From Clostridia bacterium (lineage in GTDB: Bacteria; Bacillota; Clostridia; Oscillospirales; Acutalibacteraceae), in contig JAFQCR010000004.1 of the NCBI GenBank assembly GCA_017416345.1, positions 145,475-209,474 on the forward strand: a stretch of 64,000 nt of DNA, read 5' to 3'. Positions within the stretch are counted from its first letter, which is position 1. Each line of letters starts with the position of its first letter. The position numbers were made by a program, and so were the translations under genes. Positions 44,617 through 63,742 of the stretch are shown piece by piece. A model generated the notes under the pieces. The model made no database searches and had not been told where the DNA came from. It saw only the letters and a program-made list of their open reading frames with translations.

Positions 44617-44633
44617 TTAAAGTCACCGCCAAC

Positions 44634-44697
44634 GGAAAATAATATAAAACAATCGGAAAATAATGTACTGCAATTCCTTATACACTATTGTAACATA
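44634..44697 (+). promoter_or_regulatory. AraC-type direct-repeat operator and weak promoter of the dehydrogenase-isomerase operon
   Basis: CGGAAAATAAT occurs exactly twice, at 44634-44644 and 44655-44665 (21-bp period). Immediately downstream is a poor promoter: CTGCAA (44669-44674), 17 bp, TAACAT (44692-44697). A weak promoter abutting two in-phase repeats is what an AraC-activated promoter looks like. Confidence 0.65.
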
Positions 44698-44736
44698 AAA
44701 CTGTAAAAATTCAACAATTTATTTGGAGGTTATGTT

Positions 44737-46553: not shown

Positions 46554-46575
46554 TATGGGTTAGATGTAAAAAATT

Positions 46576-46613
46576 AAGACCTCTTTGAACTGAATGTTCA
46601 GAGAGGTCTTTTG
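46576..46613. terminator. bidirectional terminator
   Basis: A 15-bp stem with one G-U pair (46576-46590 with 46596-46610) and T-rich ends on both strands, between convergent operons. Confidence 0.83.
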
Positions 46614-46624
46614 TGTTGACGATG

Positions 46625-48637: not shown

Positions 48638-49417
48638 TTATTTATGCAGACCCTTTTTCCTTAAAATCTCCAACACCTCGTCGGGGTTGTCGCAGGTAAT
48701 AAGCTCTGCACCATAAGCAATTGAAGCATCAATTGCTTCTTCATTCTTTGCATAAGTGCCTGCCCAAAGACGGACACCGGTCTCTTCATGGAGTTGTTTT
48801 ACCTGCTCCACCGAAACCTCTCCGTCAAGAATACCAAAAACACAGGTGCAGTATCCGTAAACATAAGGGTCTCTTGTGACCTCGCCCAAGTGTCTTATAG
48901 GGTAGTACAAATGTTGCTTATATTTATTGCCATACTTATCATTGATATATTCGTGCAGTTTGCCGTTCCACGTGTTGAGAACACAACGATCGGTAAAGCC
49001 GTAATCATCGATAATCTTCAAAACGCGGTCGCAAACATCATAGGCAATGGCATCCCTGCCGTCGATGGGATATTCTTTAAGTTCGATATCCAAGGTAATG
49101 GTGGGATGATCCTTTACCAATTCCATAAACTCTATAAGGGTTGGAATCTTTGTTCCGTTGCCTGCATCAAGCTCTTTAAGCTCTGCAAGAGTGAAATCAC
49201 AGACAAAACCGGTTGCATTGGTGGTACGATCAACTGTTTTATCGTGAATAAGCACCAATTCGCCGTCTTTAGTAACACGAACATCGGTTTCAAGTTGGTC
49301 AACATCAAGCGTCAAAGCGGCTTTGAATGCTTCAATGGTGTTTTCAGGATATTTGTCACGCCAACCGCGGTGAGCCGCAACATAAATATTTTCAGGGCTT
49401 TGAGTCCAATAATTCAT
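48638..49417 (-). CDS. glycerophosphodiester phosphodiesterase
   Basis: Cytoplasmic GDPD-family TIM barrel of 259 aa that releases sn-glycerol-3-phosphate from glycerophosphodiesters. Seen: AHRGWRDKYPENTIEAF (HRG...PEN), LETDVRVTKDG (ExD metal site), LIHDKTVDRTT (catalytic His) and LDIELKEY (Glu). I chose ATG 49417 with GAGAGGTG upstream; a GTG 9 nt earlier falls inside that site. Five nt separate it from the gpsA stop. Without a signal peptide it must act on imported diesters or internal lipid/polymer turnover. Confidence 0.9.
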   Translation of the reverse strand: MNYWTQSPENIYVAAHRGWRDKYPENTIEAFKAALTLDVDQLETDVRVTKDGELVLIHDKTVDRTTNATGFVCDFTLAELKELDAGNGTKIPTLIEFMELVKDHPTITLDIELKEYPIDGRDAIAYDVCDRVLKIIDDYGFTDRCVLNTWNGKLHEYINDKYGNKYKQHLYYPIRHLGEVTRDPYVYGYCTCVFGILDGEVSVEQVKQLHEETGVRLWAGTYAKNEEAIDASIAYGAELITCDNPDEVLEILRKKGLHK

Positions 49418-49422
49418 ACCGA

Positions 49423-50469
49423 TCACCTCTCAAATGTGAAGCTTTCCCAAGGAATATTAACTTCCTTTTTATCGGTAATAATCTCATCAATGTGCATCAA
49501 CAAGGGGAACTCCTTGATATCAACAATACCCTTTTCAGCCTTAACCTTGATAGCCTTTGCAACACGGCCTGCAACAACCAAGGATTCAAGAGTAACACCC
49601 TTGAGTTCTGCTTTAGCCTCATCAATATTAAGTCCACGACCGAGCAAAATGCCAACCAGTCTGGTTCTGCCACCATAAACGGTAACATAAAGATCGCCTG
49701 CACCAAGTACGAGGTTGTCAAAATCCTCTGCCCCCTGCAGTTTCAAAAGCTTATACATTTCTCTAACGGCCTGACCGAAAACTGCAGCCTGAGAGTTAAA
49801 GTGCAATTCACTGTCAAGACCGAATGCCTTCTGATTCAAGCCGATAGTGAGTGCAATACCCAAAGCATAGCCGTTCTTAAGAGCAACGGCACTTTCAACA
49901 CCGATAATATCGGTAGAAAGGCTAATGTGGTAATACTCGGTTGCCATTGCAGACTTGATCATTTTAAGAACATCCATATCCTTACCGCAGAAGGAAACCT
50001 CGGTCTGATCGTGTGCAACAAGCTCGTAGCTTGTACAAGGGCCACCGATAGCATTAAGAGGAATCTTCTTGTCAAGCTCGTCCAGCTTAGCCTGCCAAAG
50101 ATCCAAATAAGTAAGCAAAGAGCCATCCTCGGTGTTCATAAGACCCTTAGTGACCGAAATTACGGGAACATTCTCATGAAGCTTAGGAAGAATCTCATCC
50201 TTAAACCAATCAACACCAAAACTGCTGACACCGCAGATGATAAAATCTGCACCATCAATTGCAATTTCAAGCTCTTCGATCTGATAGTAAGTAACACCTT
50301 CGGGGAAATCCTTGTTGAACTTGGGATGACGACCTGACTTTTGGGAAGCATCGATAATATCGCGGTCAAGATGTGTGCCGACAATACGTACCTCGTTTCC
50401 GTTTTCTCTTGCGGGGAAGGCCAAAGCCGAACCCATCATACCTGCGCCAATGATTGTGATTTTTTTCAT
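49423..50469 (-). CDS. gpsA: NAD(P)H-dependent sn-glycerol-3-phosphate dehydrogenase
   Basis: 348 aa GpsA, which interconverts dihydroxyacetone phosphate and sn-glycerol-3-phosphate. Seen: dinucleotide motif IGAGMMGSALA, VISVTKGL and the active-site lysine region ESAVALKNGYALGIALTIG, with GAGDLYVTVYGGRTRLVGILLG near the C-terminus. It heads a three-gene operon with a glycerophosphodiesterase and the unknown 660-aa protein, divergent from a DeoR regulator whose probable operator covers this promoter. The operon context suggests a specialised catabolic or polymer role; a housekeeping copy may exist elsewhere. Confidence 0.92.
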   Translation of the reverse strand: MKKITIIGAGMMGSALAFPARENGNEVRIVGTHLDRDIIDASQKSGRHPKFNKDFPEGVTYYQIEELEIAIDGADFIICGVSSFGVDWFKDEILPKLHENVPVISVTKGLMNTEDGSLLTYLDLWQAKLDELDKKIPLNAIGGPCTSYELVAHDQTEVSFCGKDMDVLKMIKSAMATEYYHISLSTDIIGVESAVALKNGYALGIALTIGLNQKAFGLDSELHFNSQAAVFGQAVREMYKLLKLQGAEDFDNLVLGAGDLYVTVYGGRTRLVGILLGRGLNIDEAKAELKGVTLESLVVAGRVAKAIKVKAEKGIVDIKEFPLLMHIDEIITDKKEVNIPWESFTFER

Positions 50470-50484
50470 AGTTTGACATCCTTT

Positions 50485-50528
50485 CTAATTTGTGCTATTA
50501 TTATAATAAATGAACACAAATTAGTCAA
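50485..50528 (-). promoter_or_regulatory. gpsA promoter embedded in a palindromic operator
   Basis: Minus strand TTGACT (50523-50528), 17-bp spacer, TATAAT (50500-50505). Perfect inverted repeat CTAATTTGTG (50485-50494) and CACAAATTAG (50515-50524), centre-to-centre 30 bp, flanks the -10 and overlaps the -35. This is a good site for the divergent DeoR repressor to block transcription. Confidence 0.78.
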
Positions 50529-50592
50529 TTACTGTCCTTAAAACAGATAAACAAACATATTTTGAATCACATAAGAACGAAGAGGAACAAAT

Positions 50593-51321
50593 ATGCTCAA
50601 AAAAGAACGCCAAAACAACATTCTTAAAACAATAGCCGAGAGAAAATACTGCACCGTTCAGTTTTTGTCAAAGCATTTATATGTTGCGCCTATTACCATC
50701 CGTCGTGATCTGAGTGAAATGGAATCGGCAGGTCTTATAATCCGTTGCCATGGTGGTGCCACCATTCCCGAACACGAAAACCGCGAGGTTCCGTTTGAAG
50801 TGAGAAATAAAAGCAATTCATCAATCAAAGAAGAACTTGCAAAAAAGGCATCAAAGCTTATAAATGCAGGAGATATCGTGTTTTTGGATGCTTCCACTAC
50901 AATAAATCACATAACCGAGCATCTTTCGGCAGAGCAAAACCTGACCGTTATAACCAATAGCACGCTTGTAGCAGAAAAGTTAAAATCAAAGCACATCCGT
51001 TGTTATCTCACAGGTGGAATGCTTATAGAAAACTCACAGGCTTTGGTTGGAAGCATTGCCGAGCAAGCATTGGCAGGTGTTTATGCCAATATCTGTTTTT
51101 TCTCGGCTCAAGGTATCGACCAAAACGGAATCATTTCCGACCAATCCGAGTCTGAAAGTTCACTTCGACGCCTTATGATAAAAAACTCACAAAAGCAGTA
51201 TTTCATTTTTGATTCAAGCAAATATAACAAGCGTTTTGCTTTTAAAATCTGCTCAACCAAGGATATCAACGGAATCGTGACCAATCTCAAGGATATTTCC
51301 TTTGAGGTTAATTACAAATAG
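50593..51321 (+). CDS. DeoR family transcriptional regulator (copy 1)
   Basis: 242 aa. N-terminal winged helix (RQNNILKTIAERKYCTVQFLSKHLYVAPITIRRDLSEME; GLIIRCHGGA), then a DeoR sugar-phosphate sensor domain (DIVFLDASTTINHITEHL, TVITNSTLVAEKL, CYLTGGM). DeoR proteins are usually repressors released by a sugar phosphate; glycerol-phosphate-responsive GlpR is one. It is divergent from gpsA-GDPD with a 10-bp inverted repeat between them, so it likely controls that operon and itself. Confidence 0.9.
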   Translation: MLKKERQNNILKTIAERKYCTVQFLSKHLYVAPITIRRDLSEMESAGLIIRCHGGATIPEHENREVPFEVRNKSNSSIKEELAKKASKLINAGDIVFLDASTTINHITEHLSAEQNLTVITNSTLVAEKLKSKHIRCYLTGGMLIENSQALVGSIAEQALAGVYANICFFSAQGIDQNGIISDQSESESSLRRLMIKNSQKQYFIFDSSKYNKRFAFKICSTKDINGIVTNLKDISFEVNYK

Positions 51322-51329
51322 CCGTTAGT

Positions 51330-52055
51330 TTAATCTTTAAGCAACGGCTCAACAACCTTGGGGAAATCAAGGTAATTATCTATTGTTAAATACGGAAAAT
51401 CGGACTTATAGACCGACTCGTCATTGCCACCGAGACCGTAGTCGTCACCGATATAGACGACCTCATCGTGCGAAAGGCCGTGTTCCTTACAGTAAAGGTC
51501 AAGGGCGTAATACTTGTTATACGGCTTGGGCGCCATATCAAAGGAGGATGAGCCGCCGACAAACACGCAGTAATCAGAAAAGGCTTCAACGACCTCGTCA
51601 TAGATCTTTCTGCGCTTTATGCGGTCGGGGTCGAAGCTGAGCTTGTCCTCCTGTTTGGCCTTGGTTCCGAGAATAGCGAACGTAACGCATCCCGAGGGGT
51701 GAAACTCGACCGAATCACCGCAGTATTCGGTAAAGCCGTATTTTTCACGCAAGGCATCTACCTTTTTATTTATAGCTTCTTTGTCGCAATCAATCGTAAT
51801 ATCTCTTATAATATCCATTCCCTTGGTATCGGGGTTGTATTTGCCGTACTGCAGGCCGTAGTTGCCGATAATGTCGATAGGGAACTGCTCAAGCTGGTTA
51901 AAGATGCGCATTACCTGACCTGCGCCTGCCATAAGCAGCTTGTATTTTTTTGAAAGTTTCGAGAGAACCTCACGGTGCTCTGCGCTCAAAACGGTCTTGT
52001 GCTGTGTGAGCGTACCATCAAGATCCATTGCGATAACCTTAACTTTTTCAAACAT
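51330..52055 (-). CDS. HAD superfamily phosphatase (phosphomannomutase-like)
   Basis: 241 aa. Motif I MDLDGTLT with the nucleophile Asp, a PMM-like cap region (IIGNYGLQYG, SVEFHPSGCVTFAILG) and motif III/IV YIGDDYGLGGNDESV. Most like the Cof/PMM branch that acts on sugar or polyol phosphates. ATG 52055 has GGAGGT upstream and overlaps the end of egsA by 8 nt, so it is translationally coupled to it. Together they may make glycerol-1-phosphate and then dephosphorylate a product, or degrade a sugar phosphate. Substrate unknown. Confidence 0.85.
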   Translation of the reverse strand: MFEKVKVIAMDLDGTLTQHKTVLSAEHREVLSKLSKKYKLLMAGAGQVMRIFNQLEQFPIDIIGNYGLQYGKYNPDTKGMDIIRDITIDCDKEAINKKVDALREKYGFTEYCGDSVEFHPSGCVTFAILGTKAKQEDKLSFDPDRIKRRKIYDEVVEAFSDYCVFVGGSSSFDMAPKPYNKYYALDLYCKEHGLSHDEVVYIGDDYGLGGNDESVYKSDFPYLTIDNYLDFPKVVEPLLKD

Positions 52056-53316
52056 TTGCTTTACCTCCAAAAAGGTCATAATTCAACCACAGACAGGTGT
52101 AGCGGTCCTTAAGCTCCTTAGCGTATTTCACAGCATCACGAATGTGCTGTCTGCCGTAGCGCATAAAGAAATCGTTTATGTCAAGTCCGACATTGGAAAG
52201 TATTTCGTTTATTTCAAGTGCCGAGGGCATTTCGGACAGTATTGCCTTGATATCGGCCTCATTTTCAAGATAAACGGAAAGTCGGTCGGCCTTGTAGTTG
52301 CCAACCTTTTCCTGCAGTTCAATACAGCCGTTGGCAACCTTAGTATATATTTTATCAATTTCAGCGTTGCGTTCGCTGTCAAGCGGTCGGTACAGCTTTT
52401 TGGGGAAAGGTGTTTTCACAATATCCTCACGCAGCTTTGCGGTGATAACGGTGGAAAATGCCACGTCGATACCGTGGGGGAAGTAGTCGGTGCCGTTGAT
52501 GATTCCCGTTATCTCAAAGAAGTGCGACAAGTGATGCTCACTTCCCGAAGCAGGTCTGGAGCAACCGACAAAGCTCATCATAATGCCTATGACCACCAAA
52601 GCCTCCATAAGCGCTTTTACGCTTTGGTCGTCACGCTTTAAGATTCCGTCGGCCAACGACAACACGGTGTTTATCTGCTCGAAGGTAAGGTCGTAGATGT
52701 ATTGGCAAAGGTATTCGCCGTTTATAAGGTGGCTTAATTTCCAATCGTTTAAAGCGGAAAATTTGCCGATAACATCGCCAAAGCCGGCTTTTATCATATC
52801 AATGGGAGCGTTTTTCAGCACGTCAACGTCACCGATGATGGCGGTGGGCAGGTCTGCCTTATAGGTCTCCTTCATACCGTTGGTTATCATGGCCGCACCG
52901 GTCGAGGCATAGCCGTCCATCGAGGGAGCGGTGGCAACGACCAAATACGGAACCTTGTTAAAGAACGAAACGTATTTGCAAAGGTCTTGAATAACGCCCG
53001 AGCCGATGCCGACGATCATTTCGGTTTCGCCCAAGGCCTTGGTCACGGTGTCGATAGCCGCTTCGTTGGGAACAAGTATCTCTTTTCCGCTGAAAATGAC
53101 CTTGTTTATGGTTTTGCCGTCTAAAGCTTTTACGGTGAGATCACCTGCCGCACCGTAGGTGTTTTCATCGGCAACGATCAGTATGTTGTTAACATTAGCA
53201 CAGATCTCCGAAAGACGGCTGATAGCACCGCTTTCGATGTAGACATACTTAATGTCGCACGAGTGGTGCCTGCCGCATTCGCAGTCAAAGCCCTTTAATA
53301 ATTTGTTTATATCCAT
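52048..53316 (-). CDS. egsA: sn-glycerol-1-phosphate dehydrogenase (EgsA/AraM type)
   Basis: 422 aa NAD(P)-dependent, Ni2+/Zn2+-type dehydrogenase interconverting dihydroxyacetone phosphate and sn-glycerol-1-phosphate, the enantiomer of the usual bacterial backbone. Seen: the family N-terminus CECGRHHSCDI, GIGSGVIQDLCKY, APSMDGYASTGAAM, and metal ligands Asp in GFGDVIGK, His in SRPASGSEHHLSHFFE and His in YFPHGIDVAF. I chose ATG 53316 with AGAGGTG upstream; an upstream in-frame start would run across the promoter. Coupled to the HAD phosphatase and divergent from a second DeoR regulator. Confidence 0.9.
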   Translation of the reverse strand: MDINKLLKGFDCECGRHHSCDIKYVYIESGAISRLSEICANVNNILIVADENTYGAAGDLTVKALDGKTINKVIFSGKEILVPNEAAIDTVTKALGETEMIVGIGSGVIQDLCKYVSFFNKVPYLVVATAPSMDGYASTGAAMITNGMKETYKADLPTAIIGDVDVLKNAPIDMIKAGFGDVIGKFSALNDWKLSHLINGEYLCQYIYDLTFEQINTVLSLADGILKRDDQSVKALMEALVVIGIMMSFVGCSRPASGSEHHLSHFFEITGIINGTDYFPHGIDVAFSTVITAKLREDIVKTPFPKKLYRPLDSERNAEIDKIYTKVANGCIELQEKVGNYKADRLSVYLENEADIKAILSEMPSALEINEILSNVGLDINDFFMRYGRQHIRDAVKYAKELKDRYTCLWLNYDLFGGKANV

Positions 53317-53347
53317 AGCACACCTCTTTACAAATTTATCTGTTTGT

Positions 53348-53376
53348 AGTATACTGTTTTTGTCAACAAAAATCAA
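53348..53376 (-). promoter_or_regulatory. promoter of egsA-HAD
   Basis: Minus strand TTGATT (53371-53376), 17-bp spacer, TATACT (53348-53353). On the other side, before the DeoR gene, CGGTCAA occurs twice 10 bp apart (53433-53439, 53443-53449), a possible operator. Confidence 0.68.
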
Positions 53377-53464
53377 TAATTGACCTGAAACTTGCATAAA
53401 ATCAGAACAGTTTGGATAAATAATGCTCAAATCGGTCAAGAACGGTCAAATTTTGGAGGGCAAT

Positions 53465-54270: not shown

Positions 54271-56253
54271 TTATCGCAAATGTCCTTTTATTTCGGTCAG
54301 ACCCTCGTCGAATATGCTCCAATCCTCGTGCCAACGCAGGTTTTCCAATCGGAAGGCACACGGCCAGGCGGAGAGCCATTGAGTGGGGCTGAAGGCAGGT
54401 GTTGAGTTGCGGCCCCAGCGTGTGTGGGCAATGGCCTCGTCCTGACTTCCTGCAGGGCGCAGTCGGTCGTTTATCACAAGCGTTCCGTCCGAAATTCCTT
54501 GTGTGGCGTTGCACCAGAACGCAAGCGCACGTTCACGCCATTGGGCATTGCCTGTTAGTTCATAAAGCTTCATAAACGACAGCACATCCCGCAGTGCATA
54601 TTGATCGCAGGCGTTGTGCGGAGTGGAAACGCTTGTTGACCCAAAGGTGTCGTAGTTCATTTCTTTGATGACGCAACCGTCGGGGTATTCCACGGTGAAA
54701 TGCATCATCCAAGTGCAAAGATACCAGGCAATTTTTTCGGCTTTGGCGATATAATCACGGTTTTTGGTTACATCAAAAAGCGCAAGTGCATCACGGAGCA
54801 GGGGAGATGACGATTCCTTATCTATACTGTAGGTGTCCAAAGCGCCTGCCGTGGTAAAGCCTTCACGTTCCAGCTCTTCATAATAAAAATCAAACGCACG
54901 AACGGCCGAATCGAGATATTTTTCATCGTTGGTTCGCTTGTAAGCATTAAGCAAGGGGAGAATGAGGAAGCAACCGATAGTGCCTTTTTTGGAGATCACG
55001 TTGCCTTCTCTGTCCCACGATTTTGCAAAGCAACCGTTTTCATCCTGGCTTTGTAACGCAAAATTGCAGGTGGAAAGTGCGGCTTTCAGGTATTCAGGTC
55101 TGTCAATACCGATTTTTTGCAGCAGGTCGTAGCCTTCAAAATATCCTTCGGCGGCAGTACCAAGGTTGCAGGCATCGTGAGCCGCCGCAACACCCTTGCT
55201 ACGCTTGGGCTTGCCTGCGCTTTCAAGAATGCCCTCAAGCTGAGCCTCGCCCCATTCCCAACGGTCAACATCCTCTTTTTTTACGGTGCTCCAATCAATG
55301 CTCCACGCAGAATGCCTCTTGGGATAGTTTACATGTGCAGGAATAAAGCCTTTTTCTTGGTTGAAATATTTTAACCAAGAATCAAGGGCGGCAATGCCGA
55401 TGCTGAGGTGCTTTTTGTTGCCGTTGACGATATGATCATAGATGAACGCATTGGCAAGAGAGACGTTCTGACCCACCCAACCGATCTCATAGGTATGCTC
55501 CAGCTTGTCATACGAGTAACTGTAAGGGCACCATTGTGCGCCGTTGGTAAACCCTACAAATCCGTCCTTTTCTCTTTGTAAAAGGTAGTGACAGTAAGCG
55601 ATAGAAAGCCTATAAAGCTCTTCGGCACTTTTGGGCGCTTTGATTGCGTGACCGTAATAGCGCCAGGCAAAATCGAGCAGGCCTTTGTATCTGTGGCGAC
55701 TGCCGTCCGAAGGCAAGCACAGAATTATACCCTCAAAATCACATCGAGGCTCCATTGTGCCTTGGAAAGGCTCACCCCAAAAATGGCGGTGCAGGGTTTT
55801 AGGTCTTTCCTCTTCGGGGAAGATAAGCACGTGCTTTTCGCCCTCGTCAACCTTATAAAGTGAGCAGGCGGAGTTGCTGTTGGCTTCGGCCATAAGCGCA
55901 AGGCTGACCGCCTCGTTTTCGCTGTAGGTGCAAGAGGGGATGGTAACTCGGTGCGAAGCCCACGACCACGGAGTGCCGTCCTCGGCACGGTCACCGACAT
56001 ATTCGGGTGTGTCACCCCAACCGTTGCCGTTGTAGCTTACGGCAGGCACCATCGTAAAGGTCGCCCCACCGAGAAGTATGATCTCCATTCTCATACTGTC
56101 AACGGGTGTGTCGGTATGTCGGCGCCAACGGTAAGCGCCATCCTCTATTTTTTCAAAGGTATCGGTCGCACCGTGTACCTCGGGGATAGAAGCTACCGCT
56201 TTCCCGTCAACGGTGATAAAATGCGAACCGTCTGTTTTAAGGATTTCCGTCAT
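54271..56253 (-). CDS. 660-aa predicted alpha-helical glycan-active protein, unknown family (copy 2)
   Basis: Paralogue of the protein at 46625-48607, same length (660 aa) and colinear throughout. By eye the N-terminal 190 residues are about three quarters identical. Shared blocks include AVSYNGNGWGD, LMAEANSNSACSLYKVDEG, HDACNLGTAAEGYFEGYDLL, YLCTWMMHFTV and RPAGSQDEAI. The middle (about 300-370), likely around the substrate cleft, differs most. ATG 56253 with AAGGAG upstream overlaps the YgjV stop by 17 nt, so its translation is coupled to that membrane protein. No signal peptide. Function unknown; a cytoplasmic glycan or glycolipid-processing enzyme is my inference. Confidence 0.75.
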   Translation of the reverse strand: MTEILKTDGSHFITVDGKAVASIPEVHGATDTFEKIEDGAYRWRRHTDTPVDSMRMEIILLGGATFTMVPAVSYNGNGWGDTPEYVGDRAEDGTPWSWASHRVTIPSCTYSENEAVSLALMAEANSNSACSLYKVDEGEKHVLIFPEEERPKTLHRHFWGEPFQGTMEPRCDFEGIILCLPSDGSRHRYKGLLDFAWRYYGHAIKAPKSAEELYRLSIAYCHYLLQREKDGFVGFTNGAQWCPYSYSYDKLEHTYEIGWVGQNVSLANAFIYDHIVNGNKKHLSIGIAALDSWLKYFNQEKGFIPAHVNYPKRHSAWSIDWSTVKKEDVDRWEWGEAQLEGILESAGKPKRSKGVAAAHDACNLGTAAEGYFEGYDLLQKIGIDRPEYLKAALSTCNFALQSQDENGCFAKSWDREGNVISKKGTIGCFLILPLLNAYKRTNDEKYLDSAVRAFDFYYEELEREGFTTAGALDTYSIDKESSSPLLRDALALFDVTKNRDYIAKAEKIAWYLCTWMMHFTVEYPDGCVIKEMNYDTFGSTSVSTPHNACDQYALRDVLSFMKLYELTGNAQWRERALAFWCNATQGISDGTLVINDRLRPAGSQDEAIAHTRWGRNSTPAFSPTQWLSAWPCAFRLENLRWHEDWSIFDEGLTEIKGHLR

Positions 56254-56797
56254 TTTGAGATGCTCCTTCAAGCTTTCTTTTTTCGTTGCGTTTCTCCAAC
56301 AGCATACGGATAAAGAATAAAGTGATCGAGCCAACGGTGATTATTTCGTTTACCAATCCCGAGCGTGAGCCGATACCTATCGCATAGGTCATTTGGGATG
56401 CGCAAACAAAAAGCGATAAAACCTTGATCCTTGTCGGGACGGTCTGCCAGAAGGCAAGCGTAGCAAGACAGCCTGAGATAAGTGAGCAGACGCTCCACGG
56501 GCTGTTCCAGACAAGTATCACGCCGCCGACGTTCAGCACAAGGAAAACAAACAGCAGGGGCAACGGCTTTTTGCCGTCCTTTGCTCCGATGGTTGCAAAC
56601 AGTATCTCTCTTGTTGCGGCAACAACGCTGAGAGCCACGCCCGTATAGGCTTGTAAAAGCAAGAAATGTATCGCCCACAGAACATCGCAGGCCAGCTTCA
56701 CCATTAGGATCCCGCTTCGCTTCTTTTGCTGAAAAATCAAAAATCCGACTGCTACACCGATTCCGCCGAATATTTCACCGATAAGCTGTAAGTTCAA
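56237..56797 (-). CDS. YgjV family inner-membrane protein (second copy)
   Basis: 186 aa with about six hydrophobic segments, same family as the protein at 11884-12414 but clearly diverged (LIGEIFGGIGVAVGFLIFQQKKRSG, ACDVLWAIHFLL, SGCLATLAFWQTVP). Start is TTG 56797 with AAGGTGG 7 nt upstream. Its end overlaps the start of the 660-aa protein by 17 nt. In both places a YgjV gene is translationally packed with a glycan-degrading or putative glycan-active gene, which suggests uptake of that enzyme's substrate (inference). Confidence 0.75.
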   Translation of the reverse strand: MNLQLIGEIFGGIGVAVGFLIFQQKKRSGILMVKLACDVLWAIHFLLLQAYTGVALSVVAATREILFATIGAKDGKKPLPLLFVFLVLNVGGVILVWNSPWSVCSLISGCLATLAFWQTVPTRIKVLSLFVCASQMTYAIGIGSRSGLVNEIITVGSITLFFIRMLLEKRNEKRKLEGASQNDGNP

Positions 56798-56880: not shown

Positions 56881-57819
56881 TCAGTTTTTAAAATCTTCTA
56901 TCTCGAATTTCCATTCCTCACGCTTGCGGAAAGATGTTTTGAAACTTTTGGAAAGCACACCTTTTTCTTCAAGATGTATATAACAGCTGATGTCGCAGGC
57001 ACGGCCGCAGATGGAACACTGATAGGCGTGCTGTGCAGGAGGATAGAAATAAATGTTTTGAAGTATCTTTCTTGCGGTTTCGGGTGTCACCTTGGCTTCG
57101 CCGCTTATGATGGCGACCCTGTCTTCAAGATCCTTGAAGGCATCGGGCGGCATAAAAGGATTTTTGAGTCCGTTTGCGCCGTTATAATAAACCGAGCATT
57201 GCCAGGCATCGACCGTTCCGTCATCGGAAATAGCCTTGCCGGGGCAGCCCTTGGCACATTCGCCGCATTTGTCGCAAAGGTGAGGCTCCTTTACGGGGGT
57301 TGCTTCTATTTCAGCGTCGGTCAGAACAAAGCAGGTGCGGACAAACGGGCCAAACTCATCGGTGAGCAGTGCTCCGTGAAAGCCTATTTCACCAAGGCCG
57401 CAAAGCACCGCCGCTTCGTTAAAGTCCATTTGTGTTTCTTCGGGACGGCTTCTGTAAATTGCATCAAAGGCAACCTCGGGATTGGTGGAGTTTTCCTCGG
57501 CCATTATTTGCTGATGACGGCGTTGAGGAAGCGCACAATAGCCCTCCTCCTCCAACATCATCGAAAGACGCACCGATGCCATAGGCATAACGGTTTCTTC
57601 CATATTTTCAACGCCCATAGTGGTGTACTGATAGTAGGTACTGCCCTCTTCGATTCCTCGGTAAGCTCCGCGAAGCACTCTGAATCCAAGGCCGATCACG
57701 GTCTTTGCCTCGGGCATAAGACGGTGGACGGCAGAATCGGCAGGGAAACGTGTGATAGGGGAGAAGCCGACGAGATCGGCTCCGCATTTACGGCAAAGTT
57801 CAATTATTCTTTCTTTCAT
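56881..57819 (-). CDS. QueG-like Fe-S reductase protein 1
   Basis: 312 aa. Same plan as epoxyqueuosine reductase/reductive-dehalogenase-type proteins: N-terminal domain (CGADLVGFSPI...AKTVIGLGFRVL), the corrinoid-site-like motif AAVLCGLGEIGFHGALLTD followed by EFGPFVRTCFVLTDA, and an Fe-S centre CDKCGECAKGCPGKA. There is a further Cys group CSICGRACDISC near the C-terminus (about 271-282). Whether it binds cobalamin is inferred from the family. ATG overlaps the previous stop as ATGA. Last gene of a four-gene operon with two paralogues and a U32-like protein. Substrate unknown; true QueG is unlikely because three divergent copies occur together. Confidence 0.78.
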   Translation of the reverse strand: MKERIIELCRKCGADLVGFSPITRFPADSAVHRLMPEAKTVIGLGFRVLRGAYRGIEEGSTYYQYTTMGVENMEETVMPMASVRLSMMLEEEGYCALPQRRHQQIMAEENSTNPEVAFDAIYRSRPEETQMDFNEAAVLCGLGEIGFHGALLTDEFGPFVRTCFVLTDAEIEATPVKEPHLCDKCGECAKGCPGKAISDDGTVDAWQCSVYYNGANGLKNPFMPPDAFKDLEDRVAIISGEAKVTPETARKILQNIYFYPPAQHAYQCSICGRACDISCYIHLEEKGVLSKSFKTSFRKREEWKFEIEDFKN

Positions 57820-58715
57820 TGCTTCTTACCTCCTATCAAGTGGCTGTAGCAGGCATAGTCGCAGGCTCTGCCGCAAAGGCAGGGCGAGTATCCCCACTGC
57901 GTTTTCGGAAGAAAATCCATTTTTGGATATATGGCTCTTGCACTTTCGGCGTCAAAGCGGAAATCTCCGTTGATAATAGCCTCACGGTTTGGATCACCGC
58001 TCAGAAAATCATCTCGCATAAACGGATTAGACCTGTGAGCGCCTTTATAATATACAGAGCATTGCCAGGTATCAAGTCCGTTTTTGTCTATCGCTTTACC
58101 GGGGCAAGCCTTCATACATTCGCCGCAGTTGTCACAAACGGGAGCTTCGAGCGGCTCATCGACCTTTAAGGGAGCGTCGGTTATTATAAAGCAGTAGCGG
58201 ATGTAAGGACCAAACTTCGGGCTGAGTATCTTACCGCTCAGTCCTCTTTCTCCAATACCGCAAGTCTTTGCCGCTTTGCCGAAATCAATGATAACATCGG
58301 GAACAGGCTTGTTTGGGGCCACTGCCGTTGCGTGAACAAGCTCATAAGTGTCCATAACCTCGGGATTGGTCGTCTTATCGCCCTTTATGCGAAGGTTGGG
58401 AACAGATTTCTGCAGGCAGGCATCGTAGCCCTCGTTCTCGATCATACCGCCTATTTTCAGCAAAAATATCTCTGCCAATTCTTCATCGGGGTACTTAACT
58501 CCCAATGTGGTATATGTATAATACTGAGTGTCGTTGTGCATGGTGTTGAAGAGCATTTTTGGCACCACAAAACCAAAGCCGATAATACATTTGGCATTTG
58601 GGAGTATCTGTCTTGGGTCTTTTTGAGGGTCGGTTTCTTCATAAACTCTGCCAATTCCGCAAACACTTGCGCCAAGCTCTTTTGCTTTTTGCTTTATAGC
58701 CTCACTTGTAAGCAT
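57816..58715 (-). CDS. QueG-like Fe-S reductase protein 2
   Basis: 299 aa paralogue of the flanking genes: N-terminal domain (LGASVCGIGRVYEE...AKCIIGFGFVVPK), core motif AAKTCGIGERGLSGKILSP with FGPYIRYCFIITDA, Fe-S motif CDNCGECMKACPGKA, and C-terminal CLCGRACDYACY. The region before the core motif (PVPDVIIDFGKAAKTCG) differs from its neighbours, so substrates probably differ or the proteins form a hetero-complex. It starts 36 nt after protein 3 and overlaps protein 1. Confidence 0.78.
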   Translation of the reverse strand: MLTSEAIKQKAKELGASVCGIGRVYEETDPQKDPRQILPNAKCIIGFGFVVPKMLFNTMHNDTQYYTYTTLGVKYPDEELAEIFLLKIGGMIENEGYDACLQKSVPNLRIKGDKTTNPEVMDTYELVHATAVAPNKPVPDVIIDFGKAAKTCGIGERGLSGKILSPKFGPYIRYCFIITDAPLKVDEPLEAPVCDNCGECMKACPGKAIDKNGLDTWQCSVYYKGAHRSNPFMRDDFLSGDPNREAIINGDFRFDAESARAIYPKMDFLPKTQWGYSPCLCGRACDYACYSHLIGGKKQ

Positions 58716-58751
58716 TTAAAGTTTCTCCTTTTCTTTAAAATGTTTTTGCCG

Positions 58752-59831
58752 TCATCGGTCAAGCTTCCACGGTTTGCCGTGACGGAGAGGCTCCTTGAAA
58801 CGGTGTTCCATACAGCCACCTTTTTTTTCAAGCATAGAAACACAGCCTCTGATACAACCGCCGCATTTTGCCATATTGTAGCCGACCCAACTCGGAAAAT
58901 ACTTCTGAAGTGCACCGTAGACCTTCATTATCTCTTTTTCATCGGCGATATCGGTCTTTCCTTCAAGCAGGTCAAGATCGCCGTTTTCGTTTGCGTCAAA
59001 TACTTCTTTAGGAACAAAAGGATTGTAATACCTTCCTGCGTGGGTATAGAATGCGTAGCAACGCCACATATCAATGTCGCCCCATTCGCATATCTTGCCG
59101 TCAAGGTCTACGCTTACGGTCTTGCCTGAATTGATGGCAGGTATACATCCGCCGGGACATTCACGCACACAGGCACCGCACTTTCGGCAAAGAGGCTCGC
59201 CGTTATACATCTCATCGTATTCAAGCTCGGCATCGGTAAACAGAAAGGCAACTCGCTGAAGGGGTCCGAATTGAGGCGTGAGCAGCATTTTGCTCCAGCC
59301 TATCTCACCCAGTCCGCAGGCAACCGCAACAAGACGGAACTGGAATTGAAGATCCGGGGCTACGTTGTCTTCTCTTGTGGGACGGGTAAACTGAACGCTT
59401 CGGTGGTGTGCCGTAGAGGTTTTTGCGTTTTCATTTACCTCGATCTGCTCTTCGGGAGAAAGAGTGTTTCCGGGGCTTCCGTCCATATCGGAAACGCTAC
59501 CTCTTGCGCCCGTGTTTCGGTAAACAAACGCCTCATACCCCTCGTCCTCAATAAGCTTTCCGACGTGGTAAAGCACCGCCGGGGCGAAGATCTCATTTAT
59601 TCCACCGTAAGCCATTGAAGGGTATTGGTAAAACTGTGTTCCTTCTTCAATACCGCGCTGAACTCCTCGAGGAATACGAAAAACAAAGCCGATAACGCTT
59701 TTTGCCTCAGGAAAAAGAAATTTCGGGTTCATATCATCGGGCGCACCGGCAAGTCTCGATATAGGCGCAATACCGCAGGCATCGGCTCCGGCCTCAAGCG
59801 CGGCTTTTTTGATCATTTCACTTGTAAGCAT
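58752..59831 (-). CDS. QueG-like Fe-S reductase protein 3
   Basis: 359 aa, the longest of the three. N-terminal domain (AGADACGIAPISRLAGAPDD...AKSVIGFVFRIPRG), core VAVACGLGEIGWSKMLLTP with QFGPLQRVAFLFTDA, Fe-S motif CRKCGACVRECPGGC, then an insertion not found in the other two (about 245-300), and C-terminal KCGGCIRGCVSML. It lies 12 nt after the U32-like gene. Shares FRI/VPRGVQRGIEEGTQFYQY-type N-terminal strand content with protein 1 (RGAYRGIEEGSTYYQY). Confidence 0.78.
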   Translation of the reverse strand: MLTSEMIKKAALEAGADACGIAPISRLAGAPDDMNPKFLFPEAKSVIGFVFRIPRGVQRGIEEGTQFYQYPSMAYGGINEIFAPAVLYHVGKLIEDEGYEAFVYRNTGARGSVSDMDGSPGNTLSPEEQIEVNENAKTSTAHHRSVQFTRPTREDNVAPDLQFQFRLVAVACGLGEIGWSKMLLTPQFGPLQRVAFLFTDAELEYDEMYNGEPLCRKCGACVRECPGGCIPAINSGKTVSVDLDGKICEWGDIDMWRCYAFYTHAGRYYNPFVPKEVFDANENGDLDLLEGKTDIADEKEIMKVYGALQKYFPSWVGYNMAKCGGCIRGCVSMLEKKGGCMEHRFKEPLRHGKPWKLDR

Positions 59832-59843
59832 ATTGTTGCTCCT

Positions 59844-60881
59844 TTACACTTTTATCGACGGATCGCCGTCGAGCTTAATACACGCACGCCTCATAACATC
59901 AGCGCAGTAGGTGCATTTTTCGCATTGCTTGTCGCAGCTCATAACGTGAGAGGCGAAGCTTTTGTCTATCAGCGAATTTTCAACAAATCGGGGATAGAAA
60001 AGTCCGCTGTGATTTGGCTCCAGCAACTCCATTGCAGAGCCTCGGTAGTGGCCATCTATATAAGAACGAAGAATACGTGAGGGTGCAGAATTTGTTCTTG
60101 TGGCAAGCTTCACGGCAGGGACAAGCTCCTCATAAAGCTTCATATCCTCGGGTCTTATAAAATTTGTCCGGGACAGCCAATTATAAAAATTATCCTTGGC
60201 TTTAAGATATTCCCAGCAAATGCCGCCAAACTGATAACCGTTGTCCATAGCCGAGATCTCGGCTTCATGAGCAACCAGATTATCGTGGAATATGTGCGCT
60301 GAGCAATTGTTCAGACAACCGCTGTTGGCAAGAAGATACATCTGCTTACCGTTGCCATCGCACCATTTACGAAGTCTTAAAAGCGTCGGAAGATCTCGGT
60401 TTGTCTCACGCTTGACATAGAAGCTGTCAAAATATTCCGATAAGTAGGAAATGCCCTCAATACTGCCTATCTCCATATTGACTGAGGCTCTCACATCAAT
60501 GCCGTCAAAATTTTCTTTTATAAATTTTGCGATCAAGGGAGAGGATGTCGTTGCCGAATTGAGTCCAAACTTAGAGGCTATATAATCCAATAGATTTCCG
60601 ATCCTCGTGAAAAATGCTCTTGATTGGCTGTCCTTACCGTAGCAGTTGGCGTTGAAAAGTATATTCAATTTAATTTTGTTCTCGGTCAACCGTTTTAAAT
60701 CGTCCGTAAGCTTACATTGACGCTCGAACGCAGTTAACTCGCCGCTAACGTCCAACGAGCTTCTGCCGTTTGGCATTTCAGGCCACGAAAAATAGACCTC
60801 AGAAATATGCTCTTGGTTGTTAATGATGTCACAAATAAAATTGTCATTTTGATTCAGAGGATATCCAACTATGAATCTCAA
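59844..60881 (-). CDS. U32-like TIM-barrel protein with probable Fe-S cluster
   Basis: 345 aa. The middle resembles peptidase-U32-family proteins: TSSPLIAKFIKENF, DVRASVNMEIGS, FYVKRETNRDLPTLLRLRKWC, then LLANSGCLNNCSAHIFHDNL. Cysteines in that last motif and in a C-terminal group CDKQCEKCTYC could hold a [4Fe-4S] cluster, as shown for U32 relatives that hydroxylate RNA or quinone precursors without oxygen. Start is TTG 60881 with AAGGGG 8 nt upstream. First gene of the operon with three QueG-like proteins, divergent from an AraC regulator. The reaction is unknown. Confidence 0.65.
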   Translation of the reverse strand: MRFIVGYPLNQNDNFICDIINNQEHISEVYFSWPEMPNGRSSLDVSGELTAFERQCKLTDDLKRLTENKIKLNILFNANCYGKDSQSRAFFTRIGNLLDYIASKFGLNSATTSSPLIAKFIKENFDGIDVRASVNMEIGSIEGISYLSEYFDSFYVKRETNRDLPTLLRLRKWCDGNGKQMYLLANSGCLNNCSAHIFHDNLVAHEAEISAMDNGYQFGGICWEYLKAKDNFYNWLSRTNFIRPEDMKLYEELVPAVKLATRTNSAPSRILRSYIDGHYRGSAMELLEPNHSGLFYPRFVENSLIDKSFASHVMSCDKQCEKCTYCADVMRRACIKLDGDPSIKV

Positions 60882-60944
60882 TTATTAGCCCCCTTTTCTT
60901 TTTTTAAAGTTTAAAAAATATCGTTAGAATTTTTCGACTATGTA

Positions 60945-60973
60945 TTGATTGTACGATTTTTTTCTGTTATAAT
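60945..60973 (+). promoter_or_regulatory. promoter of the AraC gene divergent from the U32/QueG-like operon
   Basis: TTGATT (60945-60950), 17-bp spacer, TATAAT (60968-60973). AAAGTTTAAAAAA occurs at 60906-60918 and 60994-61006 in this AT-rich 145-bp gap, either side of the promoter; it may be an operator or low-complexity chance. Confidence 0.7.
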
Positions 60974-61026
60974 CAATGCGAAAAACAAACAAAAAAGTTT
61001 AAAAAACAAACCTCGGAGGCAAAAAG

Positions 61027-61857
61027 ATGAAGCTTTGCGATATAAATCCGTTTTTGCGTTATGCGGGTCTTCAGCCGTCGGTTTTATCAACGACACCTGA
61101 CTATTATTCATACGATCACCGTATCTTTTACGTTATAGACGGTAGCTGTAACTTTGTCTGCCTTGGCGAAAGGCATCCCATATCGGCAGGAGCGCTGGTT
61201 TATTTCAGACCTGCAACGCCGTATTATTTTGACGGCAAGGTCAAGGTAATAGTTTTGAATTTTGATATGACACGTTTAAATTCCGACAAAAGCGCACCCC
61301 ATCCGCCGTCAATAGGATTAGAGGCTTTTGATGAAGGAGCGATCATTGAAAACGACCCTCCGCTCGAGTTTCAAGATCCTATAATTCTTGAAAAAGCGTT
61401 TGCGGTTGAGGATAAAATGCAGGAGTGTCTGATTCATTACAGCTACCGCAAGCCTTATTCGGACACCTTGACATCGGCAATACTCAAGGAGATCCTTTGC
61501 TATATCGCTCAAAGAACCGATTCTAAATCGCAGGAGCCTTGTGAGACCGTGCAGGAAATAATGCTTTATATCAGCAAAAACTACGACCGTGAAATAACCA
61601 ACACGGAAATATCCAAGGAACTTGGCTATCATTCTTTCTACCTTAACAGGATTTTCAAAAAGGAAACGGGAATAACGATTCACAAAGCCGTCTTAAATGA
61701 AAAAATGAAGGTCGCCAAGCGACTGCTTAAAGAGACCGATATTTCAATAAAAGAGGTTGCCGAAGAGGTTGGATTTTTTGACCGTTCAAGATTTTGCACG
61801 GCGTTCAAAAAGCATACGGGTCGTACTCCGCTCGAATACCGACAGGGGAAGTCCTGA
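61027..61857 (+). CDS. AraC family transcriptional regulator of the U32/QueG-like operon
   Basis: 276 aa. N-terminal cupin-type sensor (RIFYVIDGSCNFVCLGERHPISAGALVYFRPATPYYF) and C-terminal double helix-turn-helix (ITNTEISKELGYHSFYLNRIFKKE; IKEVAEEVGFFDRSRFCTAFKKH, ending RTPLEYRQ). ATG with CGGAGG upstream. Because it is divergent from the four-gene Fe-S operon, it probably induces it when a small organic substrate is present. That points to catabolic or detoxifying use and not to tRNA modification. Confidence 0.9.
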   Translation: MKLCDINPFLRYAGLQPSVLSTTPDYYSYDHRIFYVIDGSCNFVCLGERHPISAGALVYFRPATPYYFDGKVKVIVLNFDMTRLNSDKSAPHPPSIGLEAFDEGAIIENDPPLEFQDPIILEKAFAVEDKMQECLIHYSYRKPYSDTLTSAILKEILCYIAQRTDSKSQEPCETVQEIMLYISKNYDREITNTEISKELGYHSFYLNRIFKKETGITIHKAVLNEKMKVAKRLLKETDISIKEVAEEVGFFDRSRFCTAFKKHTGRTPLEYRQGKS

Positions 61858-62027: not shown

Positions 62028-62720
62028 ATGGATTATTCACTCGAAGTTCAGCACATGTGTCCTTTAACCAAGGGACCCCATCACGGACCCGCACCTATCC
62101 CCGAAGAGGGCAAATGGGTACAGGTCAAGGATGTCAAAGACATTTCCGCTTACACCCACGGTGTTGGCTGGTGTGCACCTCAGCAGGGTGCCTGCAAGCT
62201 TTCACTCAACGTCAAGGACGGTATCATTGAGGAAGCCCTCGTTGAGACCATCGGTTGCTCGGGTATGACTCACTCTGCCGCTATGGCAGCCGAGATCCTC
62301 CCCGGCAAGACCGTTTTGGAGGCTCTTAATACCGACCTCGTTTGCGATGCTATCAACACCGCTATGCGTGAGCTCTTCCTCCAGATCGTTTACGGCCGCA
62401 GCCAGTCTGCTTTCTCTGAGGGCGGTCTTGTTATCGGCGCAGGTATGGAAGACCTCGGTAAGGGCGAGCGCTCCATGGTCGGCACTATGTACGGCACCAA
62501 GGCCAAGGGCGTAAGATACCTTGAGATGACCGAAGGCTACTGCACCAGAATGGCACTTGATGAGAACAATGAGGTTATCGGCTACGAGTTCGTATCTCTC
62601 GGCAAGATGACCGACTTCATCAAGAAGGGTATGGAGCCCAACGAGGCTTATGAGAAGTCCAAGGGCACATACGGCCGTTTCGCAGACGCTGTTAAGTACA
62701 TCGACCCCAGAAAAGAATAA
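62028..62720 (+). CDS. NifU/IscU-like iron-sulfur scaffold protein
   Basis: 230 aa. Relation to Fe-S scaffold proteins shows in HGVGWCAPQQGACKLSLNVKDGIIEEALVETIGCSGMTHSAAMAAEIL: conserved Cys residues and a GCSGMTHS loop where IscU has GCGSAIASS. (This span is quoted by its first and last motifs, WCAPQQGAC and GCSGMTHSAAMAAE.) The remaining about 130 residues are specific to a clostridial subgroup. ATG has AAAGGAG upstream. It lies 20 nt before the GGGtGRT gene, a pairing I know from many gut Firmicutes. Codon use indicates high expression. Target proteins unknown. Confidence 0.82.
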   Translation: MDYSLEVQHMCPLTKGPHHGPAPIPEEGKWVQVKDVKDISAYTHGVGWCAPQQGACKLSLNVKDGIIEEALVETIGCSGMTHSAAMAAEILPGKTVLEALNTDLVCDAINTAMRELFLQIVYGRSQSAFSEGGLVIGAGMEDLGKGERSMVGTMYGTKAKGVRYLEMTEGYCTRMALDENNEVIGYEFVSLGKMTDFIKKGMEPNEAYEKSKGTYGRFADAVKYIDPRKE

Positions 62721-62740
62721 TTTAAGGAGGAATTACGAAT

Positions 62741-63742
62741 ATGGCTAAGTTTGAAGGTTACGAGAGACGTGAGGCCAAGATCCTTGCCGCTCTTAAAGAA
62801 TACGGAATTTCCTCCATCGACGAATGTAAGGAAATCTGTGACGCACAGGGTATCGACCCCTATAAGATCGTTGAAGAGACCCAGCCTATCGCATTTGAGA
62901 ATGCAAAGTGGGCTTACACCGTTGGTTGCGCTATCGCAATCAAGAAGGGTTGTGTAAAGGCTGCTGATGCCGCCGCCGCTATCGGTATCGGTTTGCAGTC
63001 GTTCTGCATCCCCGGTTCCGTTGCCGAAAACCGTAAGGTTGGTCTCGGCCACGGTAACCTCGGTAAGATGCTTCTTTCCGAAGAGACTGAGTGCTTCTGC
63101 TTCCTGGCAGGTCACGAGTCCTTTGCTGCTGCTGAAGGCGCTATCAAGATCGCCCTCAACGCGAACAAGGTTCGTGTAAAGCCCCTCCGCGTTATTTTGA
63201 ACGGTCTCGGTAAGGACGCCGCTTACATCATTTCCAGAATCAACGGCTTCACCTATGTTGAGACCGAGTTCGATCCTTACACCGAAGAGGTTAAGGTCAT
63301 TTCCGAAAAGCCCTTCTCCAACGGCCCCAGAGCTGACGTTAAGTGCTACGGCTCGGACAATGTTCCCGAAGGCGTTGCAATTATGCAGCTTGAGAAGGTT
63401 GGCGTTTCCATCACCGGTAACTCCACCAACCCCACCCGTTTCCAGCATCCCGTTGCAGGCACCTACAAAAAGTGGTGTAACGAGAACGGCGTAAACTATT
63501 TCTCCGTTGCTTCGGGCGGCGGTACCGGTAGAACCCTCCACCCCGATAATATGGCTGCAGGTCCTGCTTCCTACGGCATGACCGATACCATGGGCCGTAT
63601 GCACGGTGACGCTCAGTTTGCAGGATCAAGTTCCGTTCCTGCTCACGTAGAAATGATGGGTCTTATCGGCGCAGGTAATAACCCCATGGTTGGTATGACC
63701 GTTGCTTGCGCAGTTGCTGTCGAAGAAGCCGCAAAGAAGTAA
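62741..63742 (+). CDS. GGGtGRT protein
   Basis: 333 aa protein of the family named after its GGGTGRT motif, present here at about residues 256-262. Other visible blocks: AIGIGLQSFCIPGSVAENRKVGLGHGNLG, GHESFAAAEGAIKIALNANKVRVKPLRVILNGLGKDAAYIISRI and NPMVGMTVACAVAVEEA, rich in glycine and with several cysteines. Only short parts of these blocks are diagnostic. No reaction is known to me for this family. It is encoded with a NifU-like scaffold, implying an Fe-S-dependent role. AAGGAGG upstream; strong codon bias points to an abundant protein. Confidence 0.88.
   Translation: MAKFEGYERREAKILAALKEYGISSIDECKEICDAQGIDPYKIVEETQPIAFENAKWAYTVGCAIAIKKGCVKAADAAAAIGIGLQSFCIPGSVAENRKVGLGHGNLGKMLLSEETECFCFLAGHESFAAAEGAIKIALNANKVRVKPLRVILNGLGKDAAYIISRINGFTYVETEFDPYTEEVKVISEKPFSNGPRADVKCYGSDNVPEGVAIMQLEKVGVSITGNSTNPTRFQHPVAGTYKKWCNENGVNYFSVASGGGTGRTLHPDNMAAGPASYGMTDTMGRMHGDAQFAGSSSVPAHVEMMGLIGAGNNPMVGMTVACAVAVEEAAKK

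Follow-up and report, generated by a model that had tools for sequence, protein, structure and literature searches.

The 64,000-nucleotide stretch of Clostridia bacterium contig JAFQCR010000004.1 analyzed here (assembly GCA_017416345.1, positions 145,475 to 209,474; hereafter the window, from genome G000) carries an operon for three proteins of the reductive dehalogenase (RDH)/QueG type, named RDH1, RDH2 and RDH3, and a U32-like protein, P0004, next to a divergent AraC-family regulator gene. This 3+1 cassette is real, recurrent and apparently transferable, and its carriers are uncultured Clostridia, mostly of herbivore and in particular ruminant hindguts. The explanation that we favor, with a probability of roughly 0.4, is that it would encode an inducible, cytosolic, multi-subunit iron-sulfur (Fe-S) reductase of the class III cobalamin type, spread as a transferable cassette and using a product of plant glycosides as substrate.

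The four-gene cassette and its conservation

The locus had been predicted from its sequence as a four-gene minus-strand operon with a divergent AraC gene (the original prediction), and the coordinates and the gaps of 12, 36 and -4 nucleotides between the U32-like, RDH3, RDH2 and RDH1 genes were confirmed. The features are listed below.

61027..61857, plus strand: AraC-family regulator with an N-terminal cupin-like stretch, divergent from the four-gene operon
60882..61026: candidate divergent promoter region, 145 nucleotides, between the U32-like and AraC genes
59844..60881, minus strand: U32-like gene (P0004), 345 amino acids, TTG start, first gene of the operon
58752..59831, minus strand: RDH3, RDH/QueG-type, 359 amino acids
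57816..58715, minus strand: RDH2, RDH/QueG-type, 299 amino acids
56881..57819, minus strand: RDH1, RDH/QueG-type, 312 amino acids, with a 4-nucleotide overlap with RDH2

The TTG start of the U32-like gene is preceded by AGGGGG, a ribosome-binding-like stretch. The AraC product matched HTH_18 (1.7e-22) and, below the cut-off of that family, Cupin_2 (8e-5).

When species genomes were scanned with RDH3 as the sole query, 183 stretches matched, and the best 80 by RDH3 were kept as loci. Their RDH3 proteins are 82-97% identical, and according to titles or isolate names all are from metagenome-assembled genomes. The order U32-RDH3-RDH2-RDH1 on one strand was found in 71 of these best 80 loci; genes were called with our own codon-score script, which made some starts too long, and some of the nine exceptions are contig ends or calling errors. 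The neighborhood survey suggested in the original prediction thus found the set conserved together, the opposite of the outcome that was to refute that prediction. In 64 of the 74 loci with room for it, an AraC-type gene lay one or two genes upstream. A small cupin was present within the core in 24 loci. A related gene, c35, lies inside the cassette in L137 (9057-9983) and near it in L070 (6966-7952); judged by eye from its CxxxCxxC start, it is possibly a radical SAM gene.

Starting from the U32-like gene, members of the P0004 family were found at 24 places in 20 of the 295 sampled genomes of the window's order, and an RDH gene adjoined at 21 of them. The three places without an RDH neighbor were L047 (with a contig end near), L051, and L058 (27% identity). 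RDH3 of at least 73% identity was present at 11 places. At 10 of them RDH2 and RDH1 came next, complete or truncated by a contig end, and in L040 the contig ends inside RDH3. A simpler 1+1 pair, RDH then U32, was found at 10 places, and G000 has such a pair too, on contig C22. Apart from G000, the only sampled genome of the window's own family with a match to the U32-like gene was G292 (27% identity). In a phylum-wide sample, RDH3 at E 1e-30 was found in 2 of 398 genomes, including G000, hence the close RDH3 family is narrow.

Mean pairwise identity among the cassettes was 85.3% for RDH3, 67.2% for RDH2, 65.3% for RDH1, 53.1% for U32 and 30.9% for AraC, where the selection of the 80 loci by RDH3 similarity inflates the apparent conservation of RDH3. 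These values, and the distances used below, are based on 77 RDH1, 74 RDH2, 79 RDH3, 73 U32 and 61 AraC loci that remained after length and uniqueness filters. In 10 of 10 other genomes found via the U32 gene, RDH3 was also at least 26 percentage points above U32. Since RDH3 has the highest identity in this sample as well, we propose that it is the catalytic core.

Apparent transfer between genomic backgrounds

The genes around the cassette were compared for the 65 of 80 loci with at least six flanking genes, leaving out AraC and the kinds of accessory gene described below. No flanking gene at all was shared in 1934 of 2080 locus pairs, and of the 18 pairs with RDH3 proteins more than 95% identical, 4 shared one. 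RDH3 was 93% identical to that of the window in G192 and G212, two genomes of one genus in another family, versus 78% and 70% for their ArgG proteins. RDH3 identity exceeded that of ArgG in six of the eight genomes having both, and was lower in G152 (74% versus 78%) and G142 (85% versus 87%, partial sequences); ArgG was not found in G215 and G243. The pairwise distances of the five genes co-varied, with Mantel correlations of 0.54-0.90 compared to permutation maxima of 0.10-0.17. The correlation was 0.90 for RDH2 with RDH1, 0.79 and 0.74 for RDH3 with those two, 0.58-0.61 for U32 with the RDH genes, and 0.72 for AraC with U32. Because the distances co-vary and the flanks differ, the cassette looks to be inherited as a unit and to be transferable between backgrounds. 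A gene order shared by 71 of 80 loci with mostly different surroundings also exceeds what chance would give. No vehicle of transfer was seen, and an RDH3 search of a plasmid collection gave no match.

The three RDH paralogues

As originally predicted, the paralogues share the RDH/QueG core. Direct reading found CGLGEIG in RDH1 and RDH3, the related CGIGERG in RDH2, and the FGP block and CX2CX2CX3CP in all three, and RDH2 shares 38% identity with RDH1 and 35% with RDH3. The three proteins matched both TIGR02486 (reductive dehalogenase; RDH1 1e-10, 42.0 bits; RDH2 1.4e-14, 54.7 bits; RDH3 4.2e-9, 36.7 bits) and TIGR00276 (QueG; RDH1 2.6e-10, 39.8 bits; RDH2 1.7e-11, 43.7 bits; RDH3 9.9e-7, 28.1 bits), and none reached the curated cut-offs of 160.35 and 200 bits, respectively. 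A PDB search returned tetrachloroethene dehalogenases and QueG as the closest relatives.

Fe-S ligands were compared in A1, an alignment of 64 RDH-type rows that form a hand-picked, diverse subset. The cysteines C215, C218, C221, C225, C258, C323, C326 and C330 were kept in all 54 cassette rows (RDH3 24/24, RDH2 15/15, RDH1 15/15), and in the RDHs of 1+1 pairs C323 is replaced by Glu in 4 of 7 rows. In RDH3 the spacing of the eight cysteines is exactly the one given in PMC4646009 for the ligands of QueG, which serve two [4Fe-4S] clusters. By alignment, the paralogues are like QueG in having its N-terminal domain and double [4Fe-4S] module, with eight Fe-S cysteines in the same order. A profile comparison (hhalign) of RDH3 with E. 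coli QueG (E 1.4e-9, 177 columns) covered the N-terminal domain together with the first of the cluster motifs. Within this domain, RDH3 residues 51-81 are nearly invariant over 24 rows. An RGxxRGxEEGT block that RDH3, RDH1 and the RDH+U32 pairs retain is largely lost in RDH2.

Unlike QueG, the cassette has three paralogues in one operon, all below the TIGR00276 cut-off. The DYH motif, strictly conserved and important in QueG according to the corresponding part of PMC4646009, was found in none of 79 RDH3, 74 RDH2 and 77 RDH1 sequences. The last Fe-S cysteine is followed by 29-33 residues in RDH3, 8-21 in RDH2 and 29-45 in RDH1, tails too short for the C-terminal HEAT-repeat domain, which in S. 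thermophilus QueG spans residues 258-372 (PMC4646009, structural description). G000 contains QueA and QueH, and no QueG over the cut-off was found in this genome, where the original prediction had suggested looking for a canonical queG, nor in 20 carrier genomes; several carriers have weaker QueG-like matches (to 4e-46, 157 bits versus the cut-off of 200). QueH is an epoxyqueuosine reductase that is non-homologous to QueG. A QueG role of the paralogues was rejected in view of the absence of a QueG over the cut-off, the missing DYH and the presence of QueA and QueH. No such role is needed, in agreement with the initial view that the set does not fit tRNA modification.

Descent, pairs and fusions

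In a tree of 67 RDH sequences rooted on E. coli QueG, RDH1, RDH2 and RDH3 were monophyletic (ultrafast bootstrap 100) and joined the RDHs of the 1+1 pairs (86), with RDH1 and RDH2 as sisters (92). RDH3 is the nearest of the three to the RDH of these simpler pairs. The simplest history would be a U32+RDH pair in which the RDH gene was duplicated twice. Multiple RDH domains also occur together in other lineages. There are RDH pairs (approximately 305 and 372 amino acids), including one on contig C21 of G000, and at two loci an RDH gene lies beside an RDH-RDH fusion of 591-597 amino acids (L151:959-3675, L152:415-3094). Here the two genes overlap or adjoin and together encode three RDH domains; their lineage is not that of the window's three. 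Proteins of 738-796 amino acids with two RDH domains were found at seven loci (L148:6845-9169, L149, L150, L155, L156, L161 and L162). Proteins that pair, triple and fuse repeatedly usually act in contact with one another, which here favors a complex of subunits. The original prediction had left the choice between a multi-step and a hetero-oligomeric conversion; the RDH-RDH fusions in relatives, together with the duplication inside the cassette, make the hetero-oligomer the likelier of the two.

Several of the 738-796 amino acid proteins are located beside AraC-type genes, and they represent a further uncharacterized RDH architecture. A riboswitch near an RDH-RDH fusion on G140:C63 was considered as evidence for regulation and dropped, as it lies downstream of the fusion on the same strand.

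The U32-like protein

P0004 itself matched no Pfam family. Its relatives were aligned in A2, a hand-picked, diverse subset of 49 rows, and 20 of these matched PF01136 (Peptidase_U32) at E <= 1, with 3.8e-11 as the best value. The family profile also matched the U32 structure 5d88 (E 2.1e-4), so that the earlier description of the protein as U32-like was borne out, though distantly. Against single E. coli U32 proteins the family gave weak matches to RlhA (E 6.5e-4, probability 28%), TrhP (0.007) and UbiU (0.02), and nothing to UbiV.

Four cysteines, C80, C189, C193 and C222 (CX108CX3CX28C in P0004 numbering), are present in 49/49 relatives, and those of a C-terminal CX3CX2CX2C in 34/49. The weak RlhA alignment pairs C189 and C193 with the CX3C of RlhA. 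Unlike the U32 oxidases UbiU/UbiV, TrhP and RlhA, to which it is distantly similar, the U32-like protein does not have CX6CX15CX3C, the U32 oxidase cysteine motif as given in the relevant parts of PMC6747719 and PMC11574389, and it differs from them also in that an RDH gene usually adjoins. The UbiV (CXnCX12CX3C) and UbiU (CX6CX16CX38C) motifs were likewise not found in the family. The protein is probably a distant U32 relative; as the oxidase motif is missing, it would belong to a branch with rearranged cysteines. We predict that it is an Fe-S TIM-barrel partner of RDH3.

Approximately 15 of the 49 relatives do not have the C-terminal four-cysteine set, as if a second cluster were dispensable. 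P0004 also matched the phage 'peptidase' family phrog_5757 (5.1e-15), hence U32-like proteins near its branch may exist in phages too.

Accessory genes and habitat

Accessory genes were counted as co-directional downstream genes with gaps of up to 200 nucleotides at the 74 loci with room. Four kinds were found in 37 of these, some loci having two: a Gfo/Idh/MocA oxidoreductase (19 loci), DUF5696 (13), a protein of the type of P0007, a gene of the window described below (4), and a beta-lactamase-type serine hydrolase (4). A GH116 (glycoside hydrolase family 116) gene in L077, and mannitol-dehydrogenase and altronate/galactarate-dehydratase types in L127, occurred at single loci. The DUF5696 protein is similar to an alpha-N-acetylgalactosaminidase (5wzn, 5.7e-7), an enzyme of GH129. 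For the Gfo/Idh/MocA protein the closest PDB entry was DgpA (1.3e-19), which, according to the portion of PMC8563793 that deals with it, oxidizes glycosides to the 3-oxo-glycoside for C-deglycosylation. The likeness to the dgp/dfg clusters for C-glycosides lies in this DgpA-like gene, co-directional in 19 of 74 loci; unlike in those clusters, no DgpB or DgpC partner was recognized beside the cassette, where no profile search for them was made, and the parts of PMC8563793 that describe dgp/dfg name no RDH or U32 protein. Because unrelated sugar-type enzymes surround an unchanging core, the core would handle what the sugars were attached to, which makes a compound set free from a plant glycoside its most likely substrate. 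The substrate-responsive regulator of the original prediction agrees with these data, as an inducible small-molecule role fits both the AraC-type gene (64/74) and the accessory genes (37/74).

Record titles of the 80 loci name a ruminant gut segment in 48 cases, Lapin in 2 and chicken in 1. Among the 48 ruminant-catalogue carriers (RGIG isolates), 45 originate from the caecum, colon or rectum and 3 from stomach compartments. According to the account of this catalogue, 48.3% of its unknown species genomes are from the large intestine (PMC8199421); the corresponding binomial tail for 45/48 is 1.5e-11, a value that ignores that Clostridia favor the hindgut.

Proposed function and alternative explanations

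In the mechanism that we propose for the Fe-S reductase, the substrate or a precursor would bind the AraC protein, by which the divergent operon would be switched on, and the products would assemble around RDH3 and the U32-like protein as the ancestral working pair. RDH2 and RDH1, derived by duplication of the RDH partner, may have been retained as further subunits or active sites. With two [4Fe-4S] clusters per RDH subunit and one or two in U32, seven or eight clusters could carry low-potential electrons: reduced ferredoxin or a similar donor would feed the clusters of RDH1 and RDH2, and the electrons would pass to the reactive centre of RDH3. By analogy with QueG and PceA this centre is probably a corrinoid, and the corrinoid or a cluster would reduce the substrate, possibly by reductively opening or removing a C-O group in a compound of plant origin. 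A single cobalamin riboswitch and a single B12-binding protein were found in G000, hence a corrinoid is probably available. More specifically, and more tentatively, three class III cobalamin-type subunits and a U32 TIM-barrel subunit may form a hetero-oligomer, a corrinoid/Fe-S enzyme of a kind not described before, that in the hindgut of herbivores reductively cleaves a C-O or comparable bond in the aglycones of plant glycosides, as one of several multi-RDH systems (RDH+U32 pairs, RDH pairs and fusions) that would have evolved repeatedly in gut Clostridia and spread horizontally; taken as a whole, this fuller version is somewhat doubtful.

Several observations weigh against the proposed reductase, besides the selection by RDH3 similarity noted above. 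The last cysteine group of RDH1 and RDH2 is CX3CX3C versus CX2CX3C in QueG, the latter being restored by an extra cysteine in 6 of 15 RDH1 rows. In the comparison with E. coli QueG, its DYH aligns to I78-N79-E80 of RDH3. Column 79, which is thereby aligned with the corrin-facing Tyr (Tyr101 in QueG, Tyr246 in RdhA), is Asn in 24/24 RDH3, Asp in 15/15 RDH2 and Glu in 15/15 RDH1 rows. Within columns 76-82 Tyr is absent from RDH3 and RDH1 and present at column 77 in 13/15 RDH2 rows, and in the RDHs of 1+1 pairs it is present at column 80 in 3/7 and at column 82 in 5/7, the alignment being uncertain by a few residues. If it holds to the residue, the proposed proton donor would be replaced differently in each paralogue. 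Cobalamin riboswitches were not more common in carriers (15/20, 12 of them over the cut-off) than in non-carriers (17/20 and 15), the latter all from the window's own family and with more complete genomes. As to the substrate, the link to glycosides is a tendency, since 24 of 74 loci have no co-directional downstream gene and other genes are present in 13; nor are these loci independent of one another, being related. Finally, 29 of the 80 record titles name no host, and the enrichment in the hindgut may come from the kinds of Clostridia that inhabit it.

An alternative is that the RDH proteins are three separate reductases that act sequentially on one molecule, with no stable complex, and that the U32-like protein carries out a fourth, possibly oxidative, step. 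The residue at the Tyr-aligned position, fixed in each paralogue and different between them, looks as if each had its own reaction, and U32 oxidases can hydroxylate without O2, as stated in the corresponding section of PMC11574389. Nevertheless, RDH-RDH fusions and sets of two or three genes recur in other RDH lineages, and the loss from RDH2 of much of the RGxxRGxEEGT block better fits a structural or electron-transfer role, which makes separate enzymes unlikely. It is also unlikely, and to a slightly greater degree, that the RDH-like proteins lack a corrinoid and are Fe-S electron carriers or scaffolds for a catalytic U32-like protein. The missing DYH, the lack of a Tyr at the aligned place, the riboswitch counts and the four invariant cysteines of the U32-like proteins would fit such an arrangement; however, RDH3 ranks first in conservation, in the sample found via U32 as well, and its nearly invariant block lies in the very domain covered by the alignment with E. 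coli QueG.

It is rather improbable that the substrate of the cassette is the sugar itself, for instance a 3-oxo or deoxy sugar produced by the Gfo/Idh/MocA enzyme, instead of the aglycone. This idea draws on the commonest accessory protein being nearest to DgpA, described in part in PMC8563793 as making a 3-oxo-glycoside, and on the sugar-type dehydrogenase and dehydratase genes in L127. Yet the accessory families are unrelated and would probably serve different sugars, around a core that stays the same.

Reductive dehalogenation of natural organohalides is very improbable. The paralogues resemble PceA and related enzymes in the cluster module, in the GLGExG...FGP block and in the top PDB sequence matches of RDH3 and RDH1, that of RDH3 being a tetrachloroethene dehalogenase (1.2e-9). 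Unlike these enzymes, they score 37-55 versus 160 bits with TIGR02486, are shorter, show by eye no twin-arginine start, and have no Tyr at the Tyr246 position in our alignments; moreover, no membrane-anchor partner was recognized next to the cassette, where no profile search for one was made. Least probable of all is a function in queuosine or other RNA modification, which the family resemblance to QueG and U32 RNA hydroxylases and the weaker QueG-like matches in several carriers could suggest, but which we dismiss given QueA and QueH, the absence of a QueG over the cut-off from G000 and the 20 carriers, the missing DYH, the lack of room for a HEAT domain, and the patchy presence in 20/295 genomes of the order.

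Besides reductive dehalogenases and QueG, we know of no class III cobalamin enzymes of known function. The same two were named for this class in 2015, in the part of PMC4646009 that introduces it. A 2024 review of gut Fe-S metalloenzymes (PMC11574389) has a section on U32 oxidases, and the words cobalamin, QueG, epoxyqueuosine and reductive dehalogenase are absent from its main text. The original prediction knew of no described pathway with this composition, and in the open-access PMC literature no paper among the matches listed describes the set in its title or the start of its abstract. This conserved, transferable and regulated cassette, with three RDH-type proteins and a new U32 branch, suggests that gut Clostridia use the class III fold in ways outside the curated families and the 2024 review. 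If it does reduce a plant metabolite, it would serve both as an electron sink and as a way in which dietary compounds are metabolized in herbivores, and it offers a defined, testable target for enzyme discovery.

Neighboring genes in the window

Two further co-directional genes follow RDH1.

56237..56797, minus strand: YgjV-type small membrane protein (PF10688, 9e-24), 83 nucleotides downstream of RDH1
54271..56253, minus strand: P0007, 660 amino acids, accessory, last gene of the co-directional run

The YgjV-type gene is a possible member of the operon, and homologues are also found near the cassette in L059 and L068. P0007 has weak similarity to sugar enzymes, namely GH88, a C5-epimerase C-terminus and GH127, each below the cut-off, and its best match in the PDB was just E 0.018. 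In L063, L065 (where two copies are present) and L068, RDH1 is immediately followed by a P0007 homologue, complete or truncated by a contig end. Next to the AraC gene, positions 62028-63742 encode a protein with a NifU/IscU-like stretch (below the cut-off), followed by a 333-amino acid protein that is presumably GGGtGRT-like.

Further along lies a glycerophosphate-type cluster (48638-53439) with glycerophosphodiesterase-like, GpsA-like, HAD-IIB phosphatase and glycerol-1-phosphate-dehydrogenase-like genes and, judged by eye, two DeoR-like regulators; the HAD-IIB subfamily model alone scored over its cut-off. This cluster is flanked by two P0007-type genes (46625-48607 and 54271-56253). The first of these belongs to a second sugar-type cluster (43732-48607), which comprises an AraC-like gene (by eye), a Gfo/Idh/MocA oxidoreductase, a sugar isomerase/epimerase-like protein and the P0007 paralogue, 72% identical to P0007.

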